Notes under the pieces: model-generated
What the model saw: the letters and a program-made list of their open reading frames with translations, nothing else
The model's database searches: none
What the model was told of the DNA's origin: nothing
Made by a program: the position numbers and the translations under genes
Shown here: piece after piece, positions 15,720 through 62,052 of the stretch
How the letters are laid out: every line of letters begins with the position of its first letter
How positions within the stretch are numbered: position 1 is the stretch's first letter
NCBI GenBank assembly: GCA_036172665.1
Contig: CM069870.1
Location: 29,936,001-30,000,000, forward strand
Reading direction: 5' to 3'
Source of the DNA: Prosopocoilus inquinatus
Taxonomy: Eukaryota > Arthropoda > Insecta > Coleoptera > Lucanidae
DNA: 64,000 nucleotides

Positions 15720-15960
15720 ATTTTATTAACTACACGCGCAAACAGTTTCTGCCTATTTATTTGTTTGTATAACAAGAACAGAAAGTTTTTAGAATATGTT
15801 ATGATTATGAGACGTATCTGTTTAGCTCTGTCATATGCATTTCATGATAGGTATACTAATCATTTATTCCAGCATTCTTTTGAATACCGTTGTATCATTC
15901 ACACAACATTTAACACTTATGCCGTCGATGTAAATGTTTATTAAAAATTTTTATTGCAAA

Positions 15961-16065
15961 ACGTTTTTGACTGGAATGGATCCCTCGATCCCCATCCTTT
16001 ATAAAGCTGTTTCAGCCCTATTTAGGGCTTCATCAGTAGTAGCGTAGTTCTCGACAGTTCTGCTC
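15961..16065 (-). ncRNA. Type I hammerhead ribozyme motif, core intact, helix I decayed
   Basis: On the minus strand the core reads CUGAUGA, then a perfect helix II (AGCCC, loop UAAAUA region, GGGCU), then GAAAC. Helix III follows as ACAGCUUU and the expected cleavage site is UUUA. The downstream AGUCAAAAACGUUUUGC matches the region after the ribozyme in the tandem array at 17.5 kb. Helix I strands no longer pair well, so activity is doubtful. It is joined head to head with a plus-strand copy of the array unit (16081-16200), the same arrangement seen at 47.2-47.4 kb. Confidence 0.75.
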
Positions 16066-16080
16066 CAAACCAAAACAAGC

Positions 16081-16200
16081 GTGGCCGGCCGCCTTGTATG
16101 GGATGACTTATTATGTAGCAACCGGGCTTCAATTTGTTAATCCTAATCCAATGTCAGATCAAAAAGCGATCGCAGGATGTCGCTACTTAAGCTTTTCATT
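16081..16200 (+). repeat. Diverged copy of the spacer of the 311-bp HHR repeat
   Basis: GGCCGCCTTGTATGGG, CTTCAATTTGTTAATCC and TCAAAAAGCGATCGCAGG match the inter-ribozyme spacer of the array units at 17.5-18.6 kb in order and orientation. It lies directly next to a ribozyme on the opposite strand, so this copy is inverted at the junction instead of tandem. Confidence 0.75.
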
Positions 16201-17138: not shown

Positions 17139-17282
17139 TATAATTCGGAGGAGCATTATAAAATTTTGGTACTAAAAACGCGCTTTGTTATTGGTAGCTC
17201 ACCGGAATTGGCCAATGCTGATTTGACCAATGCTAAAGCTCGTTTTGAGTGCCAAAATTTCAAAGTACTCCTCCGAATTAAA
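17139..17282. mobile_element. Small foldback MITE, about 145 bp
   Basis: The left end TAATTCGGAGGAGCATT and the right end (complement TAATTCGGAGGAGTAC) are inverted. The pairing continues inward over AAATTTTGGNACT and AACGNGCTTT with a short loop near 17210. No coding capacity. The three open frames drawn over it are artefacts of the palindrome. Confidence 0.7.
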
Positions 17283-17598
17283 ACAAAAAAAACAATACAG
17301 TCTATTTGAAGATTGTAGATCTGTTCGCTTGTTGCACCGCTTCTACTCACAGTATATTGTATTAATACATGAAGTCAGAAGATACAAATACTTTGAGTGT
17401 ACAGAGGTTCCACAAACAAAGAGAAACAAACCTCTACTTATTTTTAGATAATTTAAAATATTCGTAATTCAAAAATATTAATCAGTTGAGATTACAAAAA
17501 AAATCATCTAAAGTCTTGTCAAATGCTGTCGCTATTTTATATGTTCATCATTCTTACATCGCAATTGCGAATAAATTGGGCAAGTCGTTTTTGGTCTG

Positions 17599-17685
17599 CA
17601 GTGGGAATGTCGAGCTACGTTTCTGCTGAAGAAGCCCCAAGCAGGGCTGAAACAGCTGTCCAGAGGCTGCTCGAGGTTCTCACTG
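17599..17685 (+). ncRNA. Type I hammerhead ribozyme, array copy 1
   Basis: Core CUGAAGA at 17626-17632 (C3 U4 G5 A6 N7 G8 A9 all allowed). Helix II is AGCCC paired with GGGCU over 17633-17648. GAAA starts at 17649. Helix III is the self-complementary ACAGCUGU at 17652-17659 and cleavage is expected after C17660. Helix I pairs in three blocks: UUCUG with CAGAG next to the core, UCGAGC with GCUCGA, and CAGUGGGA with UCUCACUG at the far end. Internal loops between these blocks sit where loop-loop contacts occur in natural type I hammerheads. With no loop on helix III, a dimer is the likely active form. Confidence 0.9.
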
Positions 17686-17896
17686 CAATCAAAAACGATT
17701 TGCACAAAATTTTCTAAAATCTTTCATTATGCTTTGACAGCAAGCATGGGGGACTCATTAGGAGCAAATCCCGCTTCAATTTGTCTATCCTACTGCAATG
17801 TTAGGTCAAAAAGCGATAGTAAGATGTCGCTATTTTATATGTTCATCATTCTTACATCGCAATTGCGAATAAATTGGGCAAGTCGTTTTTGGTTTG

Positions 17897-17983
17897 CAGT
17901 GGGAATGTCGAGCTACGTTTCTGCTGAAGAAGCCCCAAGCAGGGCTGAAACAGCTGTCCAGAGGCTGCTCGAGGTTCTCACTG
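17897..17983 (+). ncRNA. Type I hammerhead ribozyme, array copy 2
   Basis: Same sequence and pairing as copy 1 over all helices and core positions. The only nearby change I see is GGTTTGCAG for GGTCTGCAG just before helix I. Expected cleavage after position 17958. Confidence 0.9.
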
Positions 17984-18207
17984 CAATCAAAAACGATTTG
18001 CACAAAATTTTCTAAAATCTTTCATTATGCTTTGACAGCAAGCATGGCCGCCTTGCATGGGGGACTCATTAGGAGCAAATCCCGCTTCAATTTGTCTATC
18101 CTACTGCAATGTTAGGTCAAAAAGCGACAGTAAGATGTCGCTATTTTATATGTTCATCATTCTTACATCGCAATTGCGAATAAATTGGGCAAGTCGTTTT
18201 TGGTCTG

Positions 18208-18294
18208 CAGTGGGAATGTCGAGCTACGTTTCTGCTGAAGAAGCCCCAAGCAGGGCTGAAACAGCTGTCCAGAGGCTGCTCGAGGTTCTCACTG
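18208..18294 (+). ncRNA. Type I hammerhead ribozyme, array copy 3
   Basis: Same core (CUGAAGA, GAAA), helix II, palindromic helix III and three-block helix I as copy 1. It lies one full 311-bp unit after copy 2. Expected cleavage after position 18269. Confidence 0.9.
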
Positions 18295-18517
18295 CAATCA
18301 AAAACGATTTGCACAAAATTTTCTAAAATCTTTCATTATGCTTTGACAGCAAGCATGGCCGCCTTGCATGGGGGACTCATTAGGAGCAAATCCCGCTTCA
18401 ATTTGTCTATCCTACTGCAATGTTAGGTCAAAAAGCGATAGTAAGATGTCGCTATTTATATGTTCATCATTCTTACATCGCAATTGCGAATAAATTGGGC
18501 AAGTCGTTTTTGGTCTG

Positions 18518-18604
18518 CAGTGGGAATGTCGAGCTACGTTTCTGCTGAAGAAGCCCCAAGCAGCGCTGAAACAGCTGTCCAGAGGCTGCTCGAGGTTCTC
18601 ACTG
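18518..18604 (+). ncRNA. Type I hammerhead ribozyme, array copy 4 (helix II mutation)
   Basis: As the other copies, except that the 3' side of helix II reads AGCGCU where the others have AGGGCU. This puts a C-C mismatch in the middle of helix II and should weaken it. It is the last copy; the array stops about 33 bases after the ribozyme. Confidence 0.85.
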
Positions 18605-18637
18605 CAATCAAAAACGATTTGCACAAAATTTTCTAAG

Positions 18638-20478
18638 ATATTCGTTTACTTTGAAATTGTATATTTTAAGGATCCATGTTTTGATCTAAAGCCAGTCTAT
18701 GGAAAATTAGGCAAAAACAATCACCTAAAGCTTCTTGGAAATTCTAGTGTTAATGTTTATACCAGTAAAACTGAAAAGCAAGGGACATCACGTGACGAGG
18801 TAAACACCATTAAAATGTATGATTCATGTGACTCACGATAACGTAAATAACGAGCCCACGAATAAATCGTCGAACGACTTCGAATAAACACAGAGCTTAA
18901 ATCAAAATTAAATCACTTAATTTATTTTAAGAATATCAGAGGTAAAATTATTTTGGATCTGTAGCTGTGCCAACTTAAAGCGTGAGTACGTAGATATAGT
19001 AAAGTAATTTGCAGTAAAAATTAACGGTGGCGTTAGTGCTAGACACATTTAACAAAATACCGGATAATTTTGGCAACAATACTGCAAATTTCATACGCTA
19101 AATTATTTTAAGCTTATTGACACACAACAGCACGCTATATTTCATGCATTTGTAGTTACATGCACAAAACATTGTTTTCAGTTACGGCAGTGGTTACGGC
19201 AAATATTAGGAATTAGCGTGTTATGAACTACAAACAGCTACTTAAAGATTTAACAGCATTCTTATAAATTCCTGTAATTTAGTTCAAATCATAAATCACG
19301 TGTGTAAAAAAACATTTGGAAACACGAATTTTAAAACTCTCTCGTTCTTTCGCTTTGCAACATATACACGATTTTTAACCAGAAGAACGAACAAAATAAA
19401 ATTCAAATAATCGAATCGAATTATACAGCTCATTTTTTAAATATGATTTCCGTGTCGCTGGTAAAATCTACCGTCACATACATATATCAAAAGTGCTTTC
19501 TGCTGTTAAGTTATATTTTAAAATTTAAAAGCTGTTTAGAATTCTGAAAAGTTGTTACATTGAAATGTGTATACCTACTCGTCATTTATACTACTTTAAT
19601 AGATGTATTAGCTCGACCCGTGTAATTCACATTGAAATAAAATTTCATTACTCGGTAAAACAATCTTAAATTGAATAATTAATTAATTAATTATAAATGT
19701 AAATTAGTTGATAGCTGATAGTGTTACGTAATAGTCTTGATAGTATTTACTATGGAATAGATTTTCACCACAGAATTATTAAGTAACGTTTATATGCAAT
19801 TTAAAGGTGAGCTTGAATTACGAGTCTAACAACTTACTAAATACATACACAAACATGTACACGTATGTTTGAACAAAGAGATTGAAAAGTATTAGCCACC
19901 ATTCGAAGCACACAATAATAAATTAATTTAAAACTAGGTCCCCCCAAATAAGAACAAAAATTGACTACTTGTATATTAAATAAATTAGAGTAGTAATGTT
20001 TAATTTTTATAAATTTAAAAATTGTAAAATTTAATATAAGTTTTAAATAGTAATCGCAACTGATACCTTAGTTTCACAAATGTATTTTTTTGCCTTAATT
20101 TGGTTTGAAGGCCTCAGCTGCTTTGTTGCATTTCTATACTTGGGTTCTATACTAAAACCGCATGATATTCTTCGGGTTAGCCGACGTTTCGTCCACTTTT
20201 CGCCGAATAGTTGCTGCTGTCGCTTCTAGAACGAGAACGTTCTAGAACGGAGTATAGAAAGACTAAGCTAACTGGGACACAGAAATAAATTGATAATATA
20301 TCCAAAACTCATGTTCTTCATGCCTAGTCCATTGTTTAATAGTAACTGGATAGCAATTTTGTATTTTATTGCATTTAAAATCAAGTAAATTGTTATAAGA
20401 TTTCCTTTTAATTTCTAAATTGCGTTTATTTCAATGTGATCCGTACATTATTGGAATGAAATTGGATTGAATCTCCTA
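18638..20478. other. Unassigned AT-rich stretch
   Basis: No gene, terminal repeat or RNA gene recognised, apart from a heat-shock-element-like palindrome at 20224-20247. Confidence 0.45.
20224..20247. promoter_or_regulatory. Heat-shock-element-like cluster
   Basis: The bases contain TTCTAGAA and, three bases later, GAACGTTCTAGAA. The second part gives three contiguous inverted nGAAn units and the first gives two more. This is a strong match to the heat shock factor consensus on paper. No gene or transcription start can be assigned beside it, and part of the match follows from a local palindrome (TTCTAGAACG and its complement). Confidence 0.35.
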
Positions 20479-26302: not shown

Positions 26303-27434
26303 TATTTACAATACATTTTTATGGGCACTGTTACTGCGGGGGATCTTAAAAACTAAGTTCTTGTTAACTAGGGGTGTATTTGTCAGATCTATTTGGTCAT
26401 TAAGCAGATTATCCGGATTCTCGGTAATTTCTTTGTAAATAAATATGGATTCTAACATGTTCATTTTATAACTTTTGTTCTCAACAAATAAAATTTCTAG
26501 ATTATAGGTGGTGTGATCACAATTCAGCAAATGATTAGCGAATGTTGAGTTCCTTGGTTTAATCTGGCTACTCTCATGTGTTCATCAAACCGTAGTTTAA
26601 AATTCCTTCCTGTTTATCCTATGTAACATTTATTACAGTTCGAACATTTCAATTTATAAATCCCTGACTTATCCTGTTTTAATTTGTTGTTTACAAGGGA
26701 TGATTTTATTGTGTAATTATTGTAGAATGCAGTTCTGTAACCTATTTTCTTAGCCAAATTGTTGATTTTTAAACTGACACTACCTAGATAAGGTAATTTG
26801 ATCCATTCTTTGTTATTCTTTTCTTCAGTGTAGTGGAATATTTGTTTTCTAGCCATAAACATTTTTGTTCGTTTCATGATTTTGCCAATTAGTGAGATAT
26901 TGTAACCGTTGTTGACAGCTATTGTTTTAATTATGTTCAGTTCGTTTTACTCATTGGGATATGTAATAGTCTATAAATCATTGAATTGAAAGCCGCACAT
27001 TTAATATTGAACGGGTGAGACGAATTATTGTGAGTTACTGTGTCTGTCTAGGTTGGTTTTCTATATATACTTAAGTCTAAAGAATTATTAATTTTTGTAA
27101 TAGTAAGATCTAAGAAATTAATTGAACCTTCGCTATTTTCTTTTTCGAGTGTAAACTGGATTTTTGAATTTAAACTGTTAAGGATTTCCAAAAGGTGATC
27201 TAATTGTCTATCTGTTTCTGACCAGAGACATAAAATATCATCAACATATCGGTGCCAAAAGATAACGTTTTTGATTAACTTGTTAGTTGAATTTAGAAGA
27301 GTTCTTTCGAAATTATCCATAAAGATTTCTGCTAGTAACGGTGAGAGAGGGGAACCCATTGGTAAACCCTGTTTTTGTTTATATATTTTATTATTAAATT
27401 GAAAATAATTCTGTTCAATACAAACTTCGAACAT
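26303..27434 (-). pseudogene. Penelope-like RT (C-terminal part) and GIY-YIG endonuclease
   Basis: The first open piece (27434 to 27048, 128 residues) has KQGLPMGSPLSPLLAEIFM and WHRYVDDILCLW, the RT motifs of Penelope-like elements, then NFLDLTITK and YRKPT. After stops comes a linker piece (26877 to 26614) with LPYLGSVSLKI. It runs into a GIY-YIG nuclease: SGIYKLKCSNCNKCYIG, a stop, then TGRNFKLRFDEH. The final piece (26530 to 26306) carries NHLLNCDHTTY and LESIFIYKE with the acidic residue expected late in the domain. The N-terminal RT half is missing. The enzyme copies RNA at nicked target DNA in intact relatives; this copy is dead. Confidence 0.88.
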
Positions 27435-27581
27435 ATTAAATATTTCTTTATCGTTATATAAAACAATACCGAGTGTCTATTTTATTTTACTTTACTATAG
27501 AAATCATGTTGAAACTCTCTTAATATTTTATGATAACTTACTAATAAAACTAAGTATCTTTAGATGTATTAAAATTTAATA

Positions 27582-30659: not shown

Positions 30660-31931
30660 GGTTAGCCAAATTTTTAGATGAGAAAAAGATAATTTCAAGT
30701 GTACAGAATCTGCAGCACTAGAATTAATAGAATACATTCTAGCTAACATAGATGCCTATAATAAGACAATAGCTACTTTCTGCGATCTAAGCAAGGCTTT
30801 TGATCTCGTCGAACACAAGCGATTATTAGATAAAATATATTATTATGGCATCCGTGGAATTAGTCATAAGTGGTTGTCATCATATCTACAAGCCAGATCA
30901 CAGAGAGCAGAAATTAGATGTTTGGGTAAATGTAGTAGATCCTCATCACTTGATATTTACAAAGGTGTCCCTCAGGGGTCTATACTAGGACCAGTATTGT
31001 TTAATCTTTACATAAATGATCTACCTTTAAATCTAAATACTGTTAATAAATGTGTAATGTATGTAGATGACACTGTCTTGGTTAATTACGGAAAAAAACG
31101 TTAAGGTACTTTCAACTATGGCCAATAATGCGGTTGAGGATATGAAAAAGTGGCTTCAAGAAAATCAATTATTTCTAAATGAAACTAAATCTCAGTTCGT
31201 GGAATTTAGCACCAAAAATGCAAATGAATGCAATAAAGCAAAAATGATCTCTCTTCAACGTGTATCCACAGTTAGATACTTGGGTTTCGATTTGCATGAG
31301 AACTTTGATTGGGCTGAACACATAACCAATTTATCTAAAAAGTCAATAAAAATATATTTGCCTTAAAAAAACTTTCTTCTCTATGTGGCACAGAAACTTG
31401 CAGGATCTTTTATTTCAGTAAAATATATTCTCAGTTAAAGTACGGATAACTATTACTATTCGTATTATTCATAAGTTACCTTTTAGGTCATCATGTAGGA
31501 CTTGCTTTATGAAAAACGACTATTTAACTTTATCAAGTATGTATATTTATTCTGCAGCTGTCTATATTCGTAAAAAACTACATAGTTTTGAATCCAGCGC
31601 TGCAAGCGAAAACTGCAGCATACGTCAGCCATCTTTGCTTTTGCCAAGATGCAGATTAGAAATGCGTAGAAAAGGTCCTCTTTGCTCTGCTATTAGAATT
31701 TACAATAAACTTCCTAACAGGCTGAAAGAGGCTTCCTCTCTCGCTTTGTTTAAGAGTAACTTAAAATGTTGGCTTATTCGGGAGTGCTATTATTCTGTGA
31801 ATGATTTTTTTCTGGTAAACTAATGTATGTGATAAAGGTACACTGTTTAGTAAGTTTCTTTACAATTGTCCTAATTTTTTTTCCTCTGACAATGTCTATA
31901 TCTTTATATAAGATTTAACGACAATAAAGGA

Positions 31932-33629: not shown

Positions 33630-33704
33630 CATTGGATTCTTCTACTGAAGAGACTCCAAACATTGCCGAAGTAGCTATTCACGGGATGCTCGAGAAATCC
33701 AATG
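33630..33704 (+). ncRNA. Degenerate hammerhead of the tandem-repeat family
   Basis: Core CUGAAGA at 33645-33651 is intact, but helix II and the GAAA side are damaged (GCCGAAGUAGCUAUU). The outer helix I pairs perfectly, CAUUGGAUU (33630-33638) with AAUCCAAUG (33696-33704), although the bases differ from the array copies (CAGUGGGA with UCUCACUG). The downstream CAATCAAAAACCGATTTGC matches the array. It is a single isolated copy with no spacer repeat beside it. Confidence 0.65.
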
Positions 33705-33759
33705 CAATCAAAAACCGATTTGCAAATAGTTTTTTACCTGTCGTAACATTTATTATTAA

Positions 33760-37266: not shown

Positions 37267-37333
37267 TAAGTTTTATATCCGTAGATACGTATTTCGGCAG
37301 CTAAGCTGCCATCTTCAGTACGCTACCAACTTA
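37267..37333 (-). ncRNA. Type I hammerhead ribozyme, complete, palindromic helix III
   Basis: Minus strand, 67 nt. Core CUGAAGA (37312-37318). Helix II is GGCAGC with GCUGCC around a UUA loop, then GAA. Helix III is the self-complementary AUACGUAU (37285-37292), with cleavage after the following C (37284). Helix I pairs CGUA with UACG beside the core and UAAGUU with AACUUA at the outer end. All conserved core bases are present. As in the 17.5-kb array, helix III has no loop, so a dimeric active form is expected. Confidence 0.85.
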
Positions 37334-40829: not shown

Positions 40830-40868
40830 TCAACGTTTCGCTATAGATTTATAGCTTCGTCAGAAGTG
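40830..40868 (-). ncRNA. Hammerhead motif, left arm of the 388-bp palindrome
   Basis: Minus strand: CUGACGA core (40857-40863), perfect helix II GCUAUA with UAUAGC around AAUC, then GAAACGUU. Helix III would be the two-pair palindrome ACGU with cleavage after the following U. Helix I beside the core is poor in this arm, so activity is uncertain. Confidence 0.6.
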
Positions 40869-46741: not shown

Positions 46742-47224
46742 GGAGCCTGCTATAAATAATTAACAACGGCGTCACACGAGTGTACAAAATACATAAATCG
46801 AAATTATAAACCCAGACTCGTTTTATTACAAGTTGTACTCTGAAAATGTGTCATAAAAATTGTGTAAAAACGTGCAGACAGGGGTTGGAAATCCACTTTT
46901 CATCCCCTTTTGTCCCTAATTCATTTAAACAATCTATACAAAGTTGGATTTCGATTGTCTCTGTTCGTAGCTCCTGTGGTTTGGTAAAAAACCAGAAATC
47001 GGTTTTCGAATTTGTTTTCCATGGTTGCTCAAATATCGTTTTTCCTGTATTTTCAGAATTATGGAAAATGCTTCATCCTTTTCTCTCTTTCCGGTTTTTC
47101 ATCTCCTTAGACTTCAGATAACTTTACTTACGAGAATGTCTCAAATAAAAATGCCCAATTTTTTAATATAACAACACATTTAAAAAAGCGTAAAATTTAG
47201 AAATGAATAACTTTAAACAACGAC
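46742..47224. other. Unassigned stretch
   Basis: The 91-residue open frame 46846-47121 shows no domain. Nothing else recognised. Confidence 0.4.
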
Positions 47225-47290
47225 ATCCTACGATCGATTTTTGACGCAATATTGCATTAAGATTGACAAATTGAAGCTAGTTTGCTACAT
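47225..47290 (-). repeat. Inverted spacer fragment of the HHR tandem-repeat family
   Basis: The complement reads AGCTTCAATTTGTCAATC, TGCAATATTGCGTC and GTAGGATGTCG, matching the spacer of the 311-bp units in order. It points away from the ribozyme that follows, the same junction type as at 16 kb. Confidence 0.7.
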
Positions 47291-47299
47291 AATAAGTCA

Positions 47300-47390
47300 A
47301 AGCGACGGTACTCTAGAGCTACGGGTCTGTTGATGAAGCCCCAAGTAGGGGCTGAAACAGCTGTACTGAGGCTGCTTAAGTGATTCACTG
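47300..47390 (+). ncRNA. Hammerhead motif of the tandem-repeat family, one core change
   Basis: UUGAUGA replaces CUGANGA (C3 changed to U). Helix II is extended and perfect (AGCCCC with GGGGCU), GAAA is intact, helix III ACAGCUGU is the same palindrome as in the array and the site is GUA. The downstream CACTGCAATCAAAAACG and GATTTGCAAAATTTT match the array. C3 is essential in known hammerheads, so this copy is probably inactive. Confidence 0.75.
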
Positions 47391-47742
47391 CAATCAAAAA
47401 CGATTTGCAAAATTTTGTAAAATTTAGGTTACAATACAATTTAGAAAAATGTAAATATAAGAAAAAACAAGACGTGAAGTTCAGCTTACAATTCAGAAAT
47501 TTTTTTTAACATTTTAACAAAATTTGAAATTTCATTCACAGTATAGTTACATAAAAGAATTACTTTTAATATGAACAATTTTAGTTTTAATTAAGACGAA
47601 TAAAATTTTGAAATATTAACTGAAGATATTACTAATAACCAAAATGTCAAGATTACAAAAATAAATAAATACCACTGAAATTATAGGGTTAAATTGAAAA
47701 AAAAAATGGTTTGCGAGAGAAAGGCGAACATTCATTACAAAT

Positions 47743-47873
47743 AATTGAAATTAATCTCCGCCCACAATAATTTTTATATCTGTAATTTTTATATCCGTTA
47801 CGGATATAAAAATTATTGTGGGCGGAGGTTAATTTCAATAATCTCTTAAACCACAGTCTCCTTTACTATTTTA
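47743..47873. repeat. Internally deleted copy of the 37.2-kb hammerhead foldback
   Basis: TTGAAATTAATCTCCGCCCA and complement form the arms, separated by only a short AT-rich centre without ribozyme. The tail TCTTAAACCACAGTCTCC continues to TATTTTAG exactly as at 37473-37505. The shared tail outside the palindrome shows it belongs to the element. Confidence 0.75.
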
Positions 47874-60190: not shown

Positions 60191-61989
60191 TTTTGACGCT
60201 ATTTTACTACATTTTTTCTTTCTGTGTACTACAAATTTATTTTATGAATATTACTACTATGCGTCATTTATAAAGAAGCTTCAACAAGAAATTTCTTTGT
60301 CATTTCGACCATAGATACTTTATAAGTGTGCATATGCAAACGAGACTTCATAATTCCTATGGCACTTCCATTTAAGCTGAAAAAGACATAAAGACTCAAG
60401 AGCCTTGATAATTTCAATATCAATTTGGTAAATTTTCAACATCCTTTATTCGTAAACCGTACATTTCGCAGCCAAATATTGCCATTGTCCATTCATAAAC
60501 CATTTTCCTGTAACTTGAATATTTTGATGTCCGTGAATTATCTATTTCAAATTAATTTAAATTTATGAGTCGCATATTGATGTTTGACTAATGGGATTGA
60601 AGAAAAGAATAAGCGCAGAACACCGAATCGGAAGGAGTCACTTTGACATTAAAACCCTTCATTTCTAGAATAATTAATTCAGGCAAGCAAGCCGCTTCTT
60701 CGTCTGAATTGGTTACTATGGTACACTCTGGTACCATCGCGACCAATAAATTCTAGAACAAGCAAATATTTTCTCACTTAAAGTGAACTTTCATTAATTA
60801 CGTCTCATTGCCAAAATACTTGAAAATTGCCTTGGTAATCCGAAGAACGAGAAGCAGTTATTGTCAAATTTATGATGGTGTCATCATACGAACAATCTCC
60901 AAACAAATTAAGAATAAGTAAACACGATTTTATTGTCGAAACTTCATTTTGGCTTTTGTTCAAAGTTGGATTTAACATTTTGCTTAATTTTCGTCAAACA
61001 TAACAACGTCTTGGTCTCAGTACTTTGTGACCAATTGATCTCCGATCAAATTGTCCATCAGTTCATCATGATCACCCAAATATTCCATTCGTCAAGTCGA
61101 TCTTACACAATAACAAAGCAGAAAACACCTTGACAGGCTTGAAGTATGTATCAACTCTATTATCTAACCACTCCTGCCAGAACAAAATAATAGAAGTCTA
61201 AAAAGACGCTGGCCATTCGTTCTTTAAAAAAGAGATGGAAGAGGTTTCTTCGCTGGAAGAATTCTCATCATACCACAAACAGACCTTAAATATTAAGTCC
61301 GATGTTACCCGTTACCCTAAAGAATTGTATAATTCTGCTTGCTGATTGAAGCAGTATGTCATGAAACCCCCAGAAAATGTGTAGCATGTAGTGAAATCTG
61401 GTTGATAATCGAGAAAAATTGAAAATCCAAATAATATGTTTGTTCTCATAATATCAAAAATGCTATAATTTCAATTAAAAAAAATTTTACCTTTTTAATT
61501 TGCTTGGAATAAATATTTAAATCGCCGATTTCTCATTGTCAAAACAAGCAAAACAGTAGCCTCAGCCTCAGGATAAACTTCATTCTTTTTCAACACTGGC
61601 CTTTTCATCAATTTTGTTTAAACAATTTTTTCAGTTACCCGCACACTACTTTCTTTTTAAACATCTCTTTTGATTCAGTTAAGTAAGTACGTTCTAGAAT
61701 TATTTTTTTATCTGAATAATTTTTTCACATAAGTTTAACATTAATTGACAAGACCGGCTAACATGATAACACAATCCCTGGACACAGTGTATAATTTGAA
61801 ATTCATTTACTGTTTTCTGAATTTACAATTGATGTTTTCTAAAATTAATTAATCTAAATTACGAATTCTGAAACAAAACTAAATAGTTGATTTTTTCCGA
61901 ATTACAGCTGAAAATGTTATAATTTGCTATTTAATAAGTCACACCAGGCAAAATAGTCAACAAATTAGAAAATTTTAAAAATTTATCAC

Positions 61990-62052
61990 AAGTCTGTTCG
62001 GTGTCAAGGCCTCCTCAGCAATAGCTCGAGAATTCCATTGCAATCTCACCGA
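61990..62052 (-). ncRNA. Truncated hammerhead of the tandem-repeat family
   Basis: Minus strand: UCUCGAGCUAUUGCUGAGGA matches the 5' half of the array ribozyme (UCGAGCUACGUUUCUGCUGAAGA) with core CUGAGGA intact. It goes on with a shortened helix II (GGCC, CACC) and GAACAG. Helix III and the 3' half are missing. Confidence 0.5.

Follow-up and report, generated by a model that had tools for sequence, protein, structure and literature searches.

The window, i.e., the whole 64-kb stretch of DNA that was analyzed, contains a single tandem array at positions 17527-18636 (period 311, 3.6 copies, 97% matches with Tandem Repeats Finder). The array is composed of head-to-tail units of 311 bp with a GC content of 43%, and few differences were found among the aligned units. 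The unit alignment showed that 13 bp are missing from unit 1 and that the 3' end of unit 4 is cut at unit position ~197. A previous interpretation made from the letters alone, hereafter the sequence-only reading, had described four near-identical units with periods of 298, 311 and about 310 bp. The tandem array is real and the intervals between the predicted cuts were indeed 298, 311 and 310 bp, but there are 3.6 units, the fourth being truncated at its 3' end. No ORF of at least 100 aa overlapping the array was found. Arm mapping indicated that the array is a single arm in the sense orientation (+ strand) that ends at a site named here S2 (18625-18642, unit positions ~180-197); unit 2 includes the site named S1 (17841-17855, unit positions 17-31), which is an outer arm end in other copies. 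A candidate 3' target-site duplication was found at 18634-18645 and its candidate 5' partner at 17454-17465, with 11 of 12 positions matching; this pair is a weak, suggestive candidate only, and its 5' member sits 61 bp upstream of the first unit. These 61 nt (17466-17526) contained no unit sequence by blast or arm mapping. Directly upstream of the array, at 17143-17279, there is an inverted-repeat element (TTCGGAGGAG...CTCCTCCGAA) that is MITE-like by eye.

Each unit carries the core CUGAAGA, a helix II with the loop CAAGCA, GAA, a helix III formed by the self-complementary octamer ACAGCUGU, and GUC, an arrangement that reads as a type I hammerhead, with helix I open. The cores start at 17626, 17924, 18235 and 18545, and therefore the predicted cuts fall after 17660, 17958, 18269 and 18579. 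All four motifs are on the + strand, and those of units 1 to 3 (17626-17660, 17924-17958 and 18235-18269) were defined by alignment and descriptor, while that of unit 4 (18545-18579) was defined by fold and alignment. In unit 4, a G-to-C change generates a mismatch in helix II and a different fold; since this unit is also truncated, the unblemished motif is present in three units and not, as had been claimed, in all four. Core position 7 is A in the array and U in the textbook core, a position that tolerates change. A strict descriptor (core, helix II of at least 4 bp, GAA, helix III of at least 2 bp and helix I of at least 5 bp) gave three matches in the window, whereas none was obtained in 100 sequences of 64 kb generated with a first-order Markov model. 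The sequence-only reading had also described a three-block helix I; this helix is present, and in unit 1 its stem is much longer than described, with the predicted hairpin covering 17581-17702. When the unit 1 hammerhead was folded, as proposed in that reading, the hairpin at 17581-17706 was far better than its shuffles (z -9.05), and helix I adjoining the core paired in most of nine distinct variants. The covariance-model match that had been put forward as a check was not obtained, as the Rfam search of the window made no call at gathering cut-offs; a permissive search returned only Hammerhead_HH9, at 14.5 bits and E 3.9, in three units and amid chance-level matches. Moreover, a rival fold in which the core is paired (-52.0) was predicted to be 6 kcal/mol more stable than the catalytic fold (-46.0), tertiary contacts being ignored in both, and for this reason ribozyme activity is not to be assumed.

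Next, the genome (649,647,856 bases, ~650 Mb) was searched with the 35-nt hammerhead motif, allowing up to three mismatches. This gave 9086 + 9126 matches, 18,212 in total, a figure that counts motifs and not insertions, and the reversed pattern gave no match in the same search. The array is therefore not a lone assembly artefact, and the further genomic copies that the sequence-only reading had asked about were found in thousands of places. The window also includes two older two-armed copies, one at 47215-47423 (copy A, + strand) and another with a hammerhead arm and an inverted arm at 15944-16199 (copy B, - strand), a decayed copy of the hammerhead/S2 part at 33640-33736 (copy C, + strand), and a possible, very decayed copy supported by two short matches at 61920-62045 (copy D, + strand). 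The type I hammerhead, unit size, GC content, thousands of motif copies and target duplications in most of the examined insertions (see below) agree with the retrozyme identity that had been proposed, and support the assignment of the array to an abundant non-LTR retrozyme family, predicted to be non-autonomous and non-coding. Elsewhere in the genome, Rfam Hammerhead_1 was above its cut-off in at least seven places among the 74 scored of 83,220 candidates. Four loci (L001, L002, L004 and L007) belong to other hammerhead families, in which core position 7 is occupied by A or G. Their 3' stretches are similar (AATCGAAACTGACTTGCAACTA in L002), and these families are perhaps sister retrozymes.

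To describe how the copies are built, arms were mapped on the circular unit in two samples. Sample 1 was composed of 39 deduplicated pieces taken from the highest-scoring DNA matches (scoring covered 40 of 1352 candidates) and from three neighborhoods of Rfam hits, the hits of the other families being excluded, and it is thus biased to long and young copies. A pair was called head-to-head when its left arm lay on the minus strand, its right arm lay on the plus strand and the two were joined with no more than 40 bp in between, and arm ends were classed as S1 (unit positions 12-36, ~22) or S2 (176-210, ~190). We found 42 such pairs in the 39 pieces, and 35 of them had one S1 and one S2 end; two were S2/S2, none was S1/S1, and the remaining five, not two-site, were four older or decayed pairs and L060, with a second arm of 18 nt. 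One locus outside this tally, L024, was S1/S2 too. As a check against selection, sample 2 was picked by motif and not by length, taking every seventh of the first 100 listed exact motif matches, all on contig 1 (10 of 15 planned places), and all 10 places contained S1/S2 pairs. When the 33 two-site pairs of sample 1 with arms of at least 94% identity were combined with these 10, 41 of the 43 were S1/S2, two were S2/S2 and none was S1/S1 (p ~1e-10 for 41 of 43, assuming independent ends with a probability of one half). In most insertions the outer ends were fixed on both sides, and the largest of the 43 reached 22.65 units. In agreement, among those first 100 exact matches on contig 1, opposite-strand neighbors within 1.5 kb were divergent in 19 cases and convergent in none, and nine neighbors lay on the same strand, eight with a spacing of 309-312 or 624 and one of 1024. 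Both sites are AU-rich stretches that flank the ribozyme stem in the predicted fold, and are more unpaired there than average (0.69 for S1 and 0.82 for S2, versus 0.35 overall).

These data indicate that elements usually have two arms, of which a head-to-tail array represents one, and that the array in the window is an exception, an atypical copy with the S2 arm only. Other single arms persist in L066 and in the first arm of L060; L063 looked single-armed, yet a 12-bp repeat is present there and a further 18 nt were read by eye as the remnant of an S2 arm. In the window copy, the S1 arm may have been lost or replaced, the second end may have been joined elsewhere, or only the S2 arm may ever have been present.

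We then analyzed the insertion boundaries. Exact direct repeats of at least 9 bp across the ends were found in 25 of 31 S1/S2 pairs from sample 1 with arms of at least 94% identity (e.g., 12 bp in L029), compared with 3.1% of 454 mismatched flank pairs. In sample 2, repeats of at least 10 bp were present in 9 of 10 insertions and in 0 of 48 mismatched flank pairs. Over the 34 sites of both samples with repeats of at least 10 bp, the most frequent length was 12 bp (18 of 34), and the target neighbors were roughly palindromic, with AAC before and GTT after. These duplications would be most naturally explained by a nuclease that acts as a dimer and cuts the two strands symmetrically, with a stagger. 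The repeat of L024 is a simple AAT run and is uninformative, and both S2/S2 pairs, which may be composites, had no direct repeat of 7 bp or more. As for the inner junctions, 24 of 34 pairs with arms of at least 94% identity were free of filler, and 18 of these 24 had 3 nt or more that fit both arms, versus 5.8% expected by simulation; this microhomology would be the trace of end joining of two cDNAs. Some fillers looked, by eye, as if copied from nearby unit sequence.

Penelope-like elements (PLEs) are present in the same genome. In the window, a 5'-truncated remnant occupies 26309-27476 on the - strand, with the end of the reverse transcriptase (RT) at 27051-27476 (RVT_1, E 3.6e-13) and GIY-YIG-like pieces in other frames, recognized by eye. 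The search of the genome with the PLE RT generated 2781 candidates, of which 150 scored matches were listed. Many of the latter are in long open frames, and the 10 neighbor pairs within 5 kb among them were all divergent, one of them (contig 8) being self-overlapping and doubtful. Two of these pairs were read and were near-perfect head-to-head elements. Their duplications measured 14 and 11 bp and their arms differed in length by 40 and 34 nt, respectively, and both had a small hammerhead-like motif near the outer ends; AAC and GTT were not clearly seen by eye in their flanks. The comparison of the retrozyme unit with one PLE, L068, gave only matches of 7-18 nt (E 1.3 or worse), i.e., no significant similarity, and hence a shared tail is not claimed. 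Head-to-head arms, short duplications and unequal arm ends, which make up the PLE-type footprint, were found in the retrozyme family but not in the one-armed copy of the window. The sequence-only reading had mentioned Penelope-type terminal repeats as having this tandem layout, an identity that found no support here, as the array had no ORF of 100 aa or more and no significant similarity to the one PLE compared; as no RT/GIY-YIG ORF is present, the array was not classed as a PLE. Its proposal that the RNA is copied by a Penelope-like RT fared better, being supported by the integration footprint of the family, although not proved.

The DNA itself shows the arms and their S1/S2 pairing, the target motif with its duplications, the microhomology at the junctions and the PLEs of like layout. 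We propose an integration cycle that would begin with cleavage of the transcripts by the hammerhead, yielding ~311-nt monomers that would be ligated into circles. A Penelope-type RT/endonuclease would then make a staggered cut of ~12 bp in an AT-rich palindromic target, roughly AAC-12-GTT, and each 3' DNA end would prime cDNA synthesis on retrozyme RNA, one at S1 (~22) and the other at S2 (~190). A cDNA going round the template more than once would yield tandem arms, and joining of the two cDNAs via microhomology would leave head-to-head arms between target duplications. In this cycle, ribozyme cutting, circularity and the PLE as the enzyme are the parts that we infer. We consider it likely that this is a non-autonomous non-LTR retrozyme inserted by PLE-type two-site cDNA priming, probably on an RNA circle. 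A stricter version, to which we give slightly better than an even chance, is that two-site, two-ended priming is obligatory: one small RNA circle would offer two different start sites, one per DNA strand, and a Penelope-type enzyme acting as a dimer would read them and cut the target symmetrically with a 12-bp stagger. The head-to-tail arrays would then be the long arms, and the S1/S2 asymmetry would be the retrozyme form of the Penelope tail.

The nature of the template was assessed within the arms. In 43 of 43 two-site insertions, the arms crossed the hammerhead cut site unbroken, with 171 crossings, a count that is partly built in because both samples were found via sequence beside this site. 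Clustering of the inner ends at the cleavage site was considered and rejected, as 0 of 86 were within 2 nt and six within 10 nt. The lack of inner ends inside this 2-nt range speaks against linear monomers released by cleavage and is neutral between circles and uncut multimers. The latter, i.e., multimeric array transcripts that serve as templates with the hammerhead being of little weight for insertion, are an unlikely explanation; in its favor, ribozyme mutants left the in vitro insertion of an Anolis PLE unchanged in the data given in PMC11167929, the rival fold pairs the hammerhead core, and variants in three giant arrays were at intermediate frequency. When these three were excluded, however, variants at sites present in both arms were confined to a single row in 103 cases or occurred in all rows of both arms in 18, and only 11 were in between (30 insertions), as would be expected from one template of unit length. 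Of the 18 both-arm variants, only four were private to one insertion. Among variants fixed in one arm, 19 were also fixed in the other arm and five were absent from it (33 insertions). A looser count, before trimming the outer 8 nt of the arms, gave 11 concordant and 22 discordant lineage variants, with a between-insertion concordance of 8.5% and 7 of the 11 concordant variants near S1 or S2. The best-fitting template is a circle that was copied over several rounds in both arms, and two RNA molecules may at times serve one insertion.

LINE-1 twin priming yields 5' inversions, and a LINE that mobilizes the retrozyme could generate inverted arms in this ordinary way. We regard this as improbable: twin priming touches a minority of LINE-1 copies, whereas all 10 insertions of sample 2 were two-armed, S1 serves as a fixed second start site, and the target is palindromic. 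As generally described, a SINE mobilized by a LINE has one fixed 3' end and a variable 5' end, and this candidate was rejected since both outer ends are fixed in most of the retrozyme insertions. In favor of a LINE, a LINE-like RT frame was seen by eye in the window at 30682-31101, and published Nematostella repeats have 15-bp duplications that were likened to LINEs in PMC4918200. Finally, a plain satellite grown by unequal crossing-over and inversion, with the ribozyme as a relic, is scarcely credible, because, even if the 22.65-unit insertion and the intermediate-frequency variants of the three giant ones fit some later expansion, the motif copies are dispersed in thousands and the examined insertions have fixed outer ends and target duplications, the latter already contradicting it.

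Metazoan non-LTR retrozymes with type I hammerheads, with insects among the hosts, have been published (Cervera and de la Pena 2020, PMC7229834), and therefore the kind of element itself is known. As described there, they resemble the present family in having tandem units of ~170-400 bp with a GC content under 50%, target duplications of more than 4 bp, an RNA that is highly self-paired, and PLEs in the same genome. Cleavage and circles have been shown for those retrozymes and are predicted for the present family. A difference is that most copies of the latter consist of head-to-head arms, one ending at S1 and the other at S2. That paper left open the mobilizer and template of animal retrozymes, naming PLEs as a strong candidate, and the words 'inverted' and 'head-to-head' are absent from its main text. 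What appears to be new here is how the copies are built, from two head-to-head arms with S1 and S2 ends; a survey limited to listings and abstracts returned no description of head-to-head, two-start retrozyme insertions, which is a weak hint of novelty. Because the insertions themselves bear a footprint like that of Penelope, in which both start sites are fixed, the enzyme and template question becomes directly testable, and the family, with its thousands of motif copies, provides a natural setting in which small RNAs are written into DNA at the two ends of a break.

Among PLEs, an inverted pLTR, a palindromic junction, duplications of 8-10 bp and a tail have been described (PMC3846280). The endonuclease-containing Penelope of Adineta vaga in that account shares with the retrozyme the inverted 5' arm, palindrome or microhomology at the junction, partial tandems, short duplications and a tail on one arm; the retrozyme differs in having no long open frame and in its ends, which are 143-168 nt apart on the unit versus ~31 bp. 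A PLE protein, Poseidon PAc of Anolis, cuts and extends both DNA strands (PMC11167929), and is alike in that RT starts inside the RNA, targets are AT-rich and a hammerhead is linked; as reported there, no strand difference in the start site was seen in vitro, unlike the S1/S2 rule found here. The pDo500 repeat of Dolichopoda cave crickets (PMC2837043), likened by description only, is also an insect hammerhead repeat and was described as a satellite. The plant LTR retrozymes, as presented in PMC4918200, share the hammerhead RNA, circular intermediate and non-autonomous character, and differ in their type III hammerheads, LTRs and 4-bp duplications; this identity was rejected for the array, with its type I motif and the family's duplications of ~12 bp.

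Some minor observations were made along with these analyses. In three cases (L010/L011, L046/L047 and L036/L037), two loci that lie on separate contigs or at a great distance from each other have equal insertion structure and spacing and, as read by mapping, are segmental or assembly duplicates. Among the best 120 listed relatives each of the PLE RT and of a transposase of the window, the few named ones came from beetles of five genera, an ant and a land snail, and a scan for viral contigs gave zero. Finally, two PLE-type hammerhead-like motifs resembling that of L068 lie head-to-head in the window, 78 bp apart, at 37318 (- strand) and 37396 (+ strand), and another at 40863 (- strand) resembles the motif of the PLE L069. 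The sequence TTATTGTGGGCGGA, which follows the motifs at 37318 and 37396, is also contained in an inverted pair at 47745-47839, by eye perhaps a tiny head-to-head PLE end.
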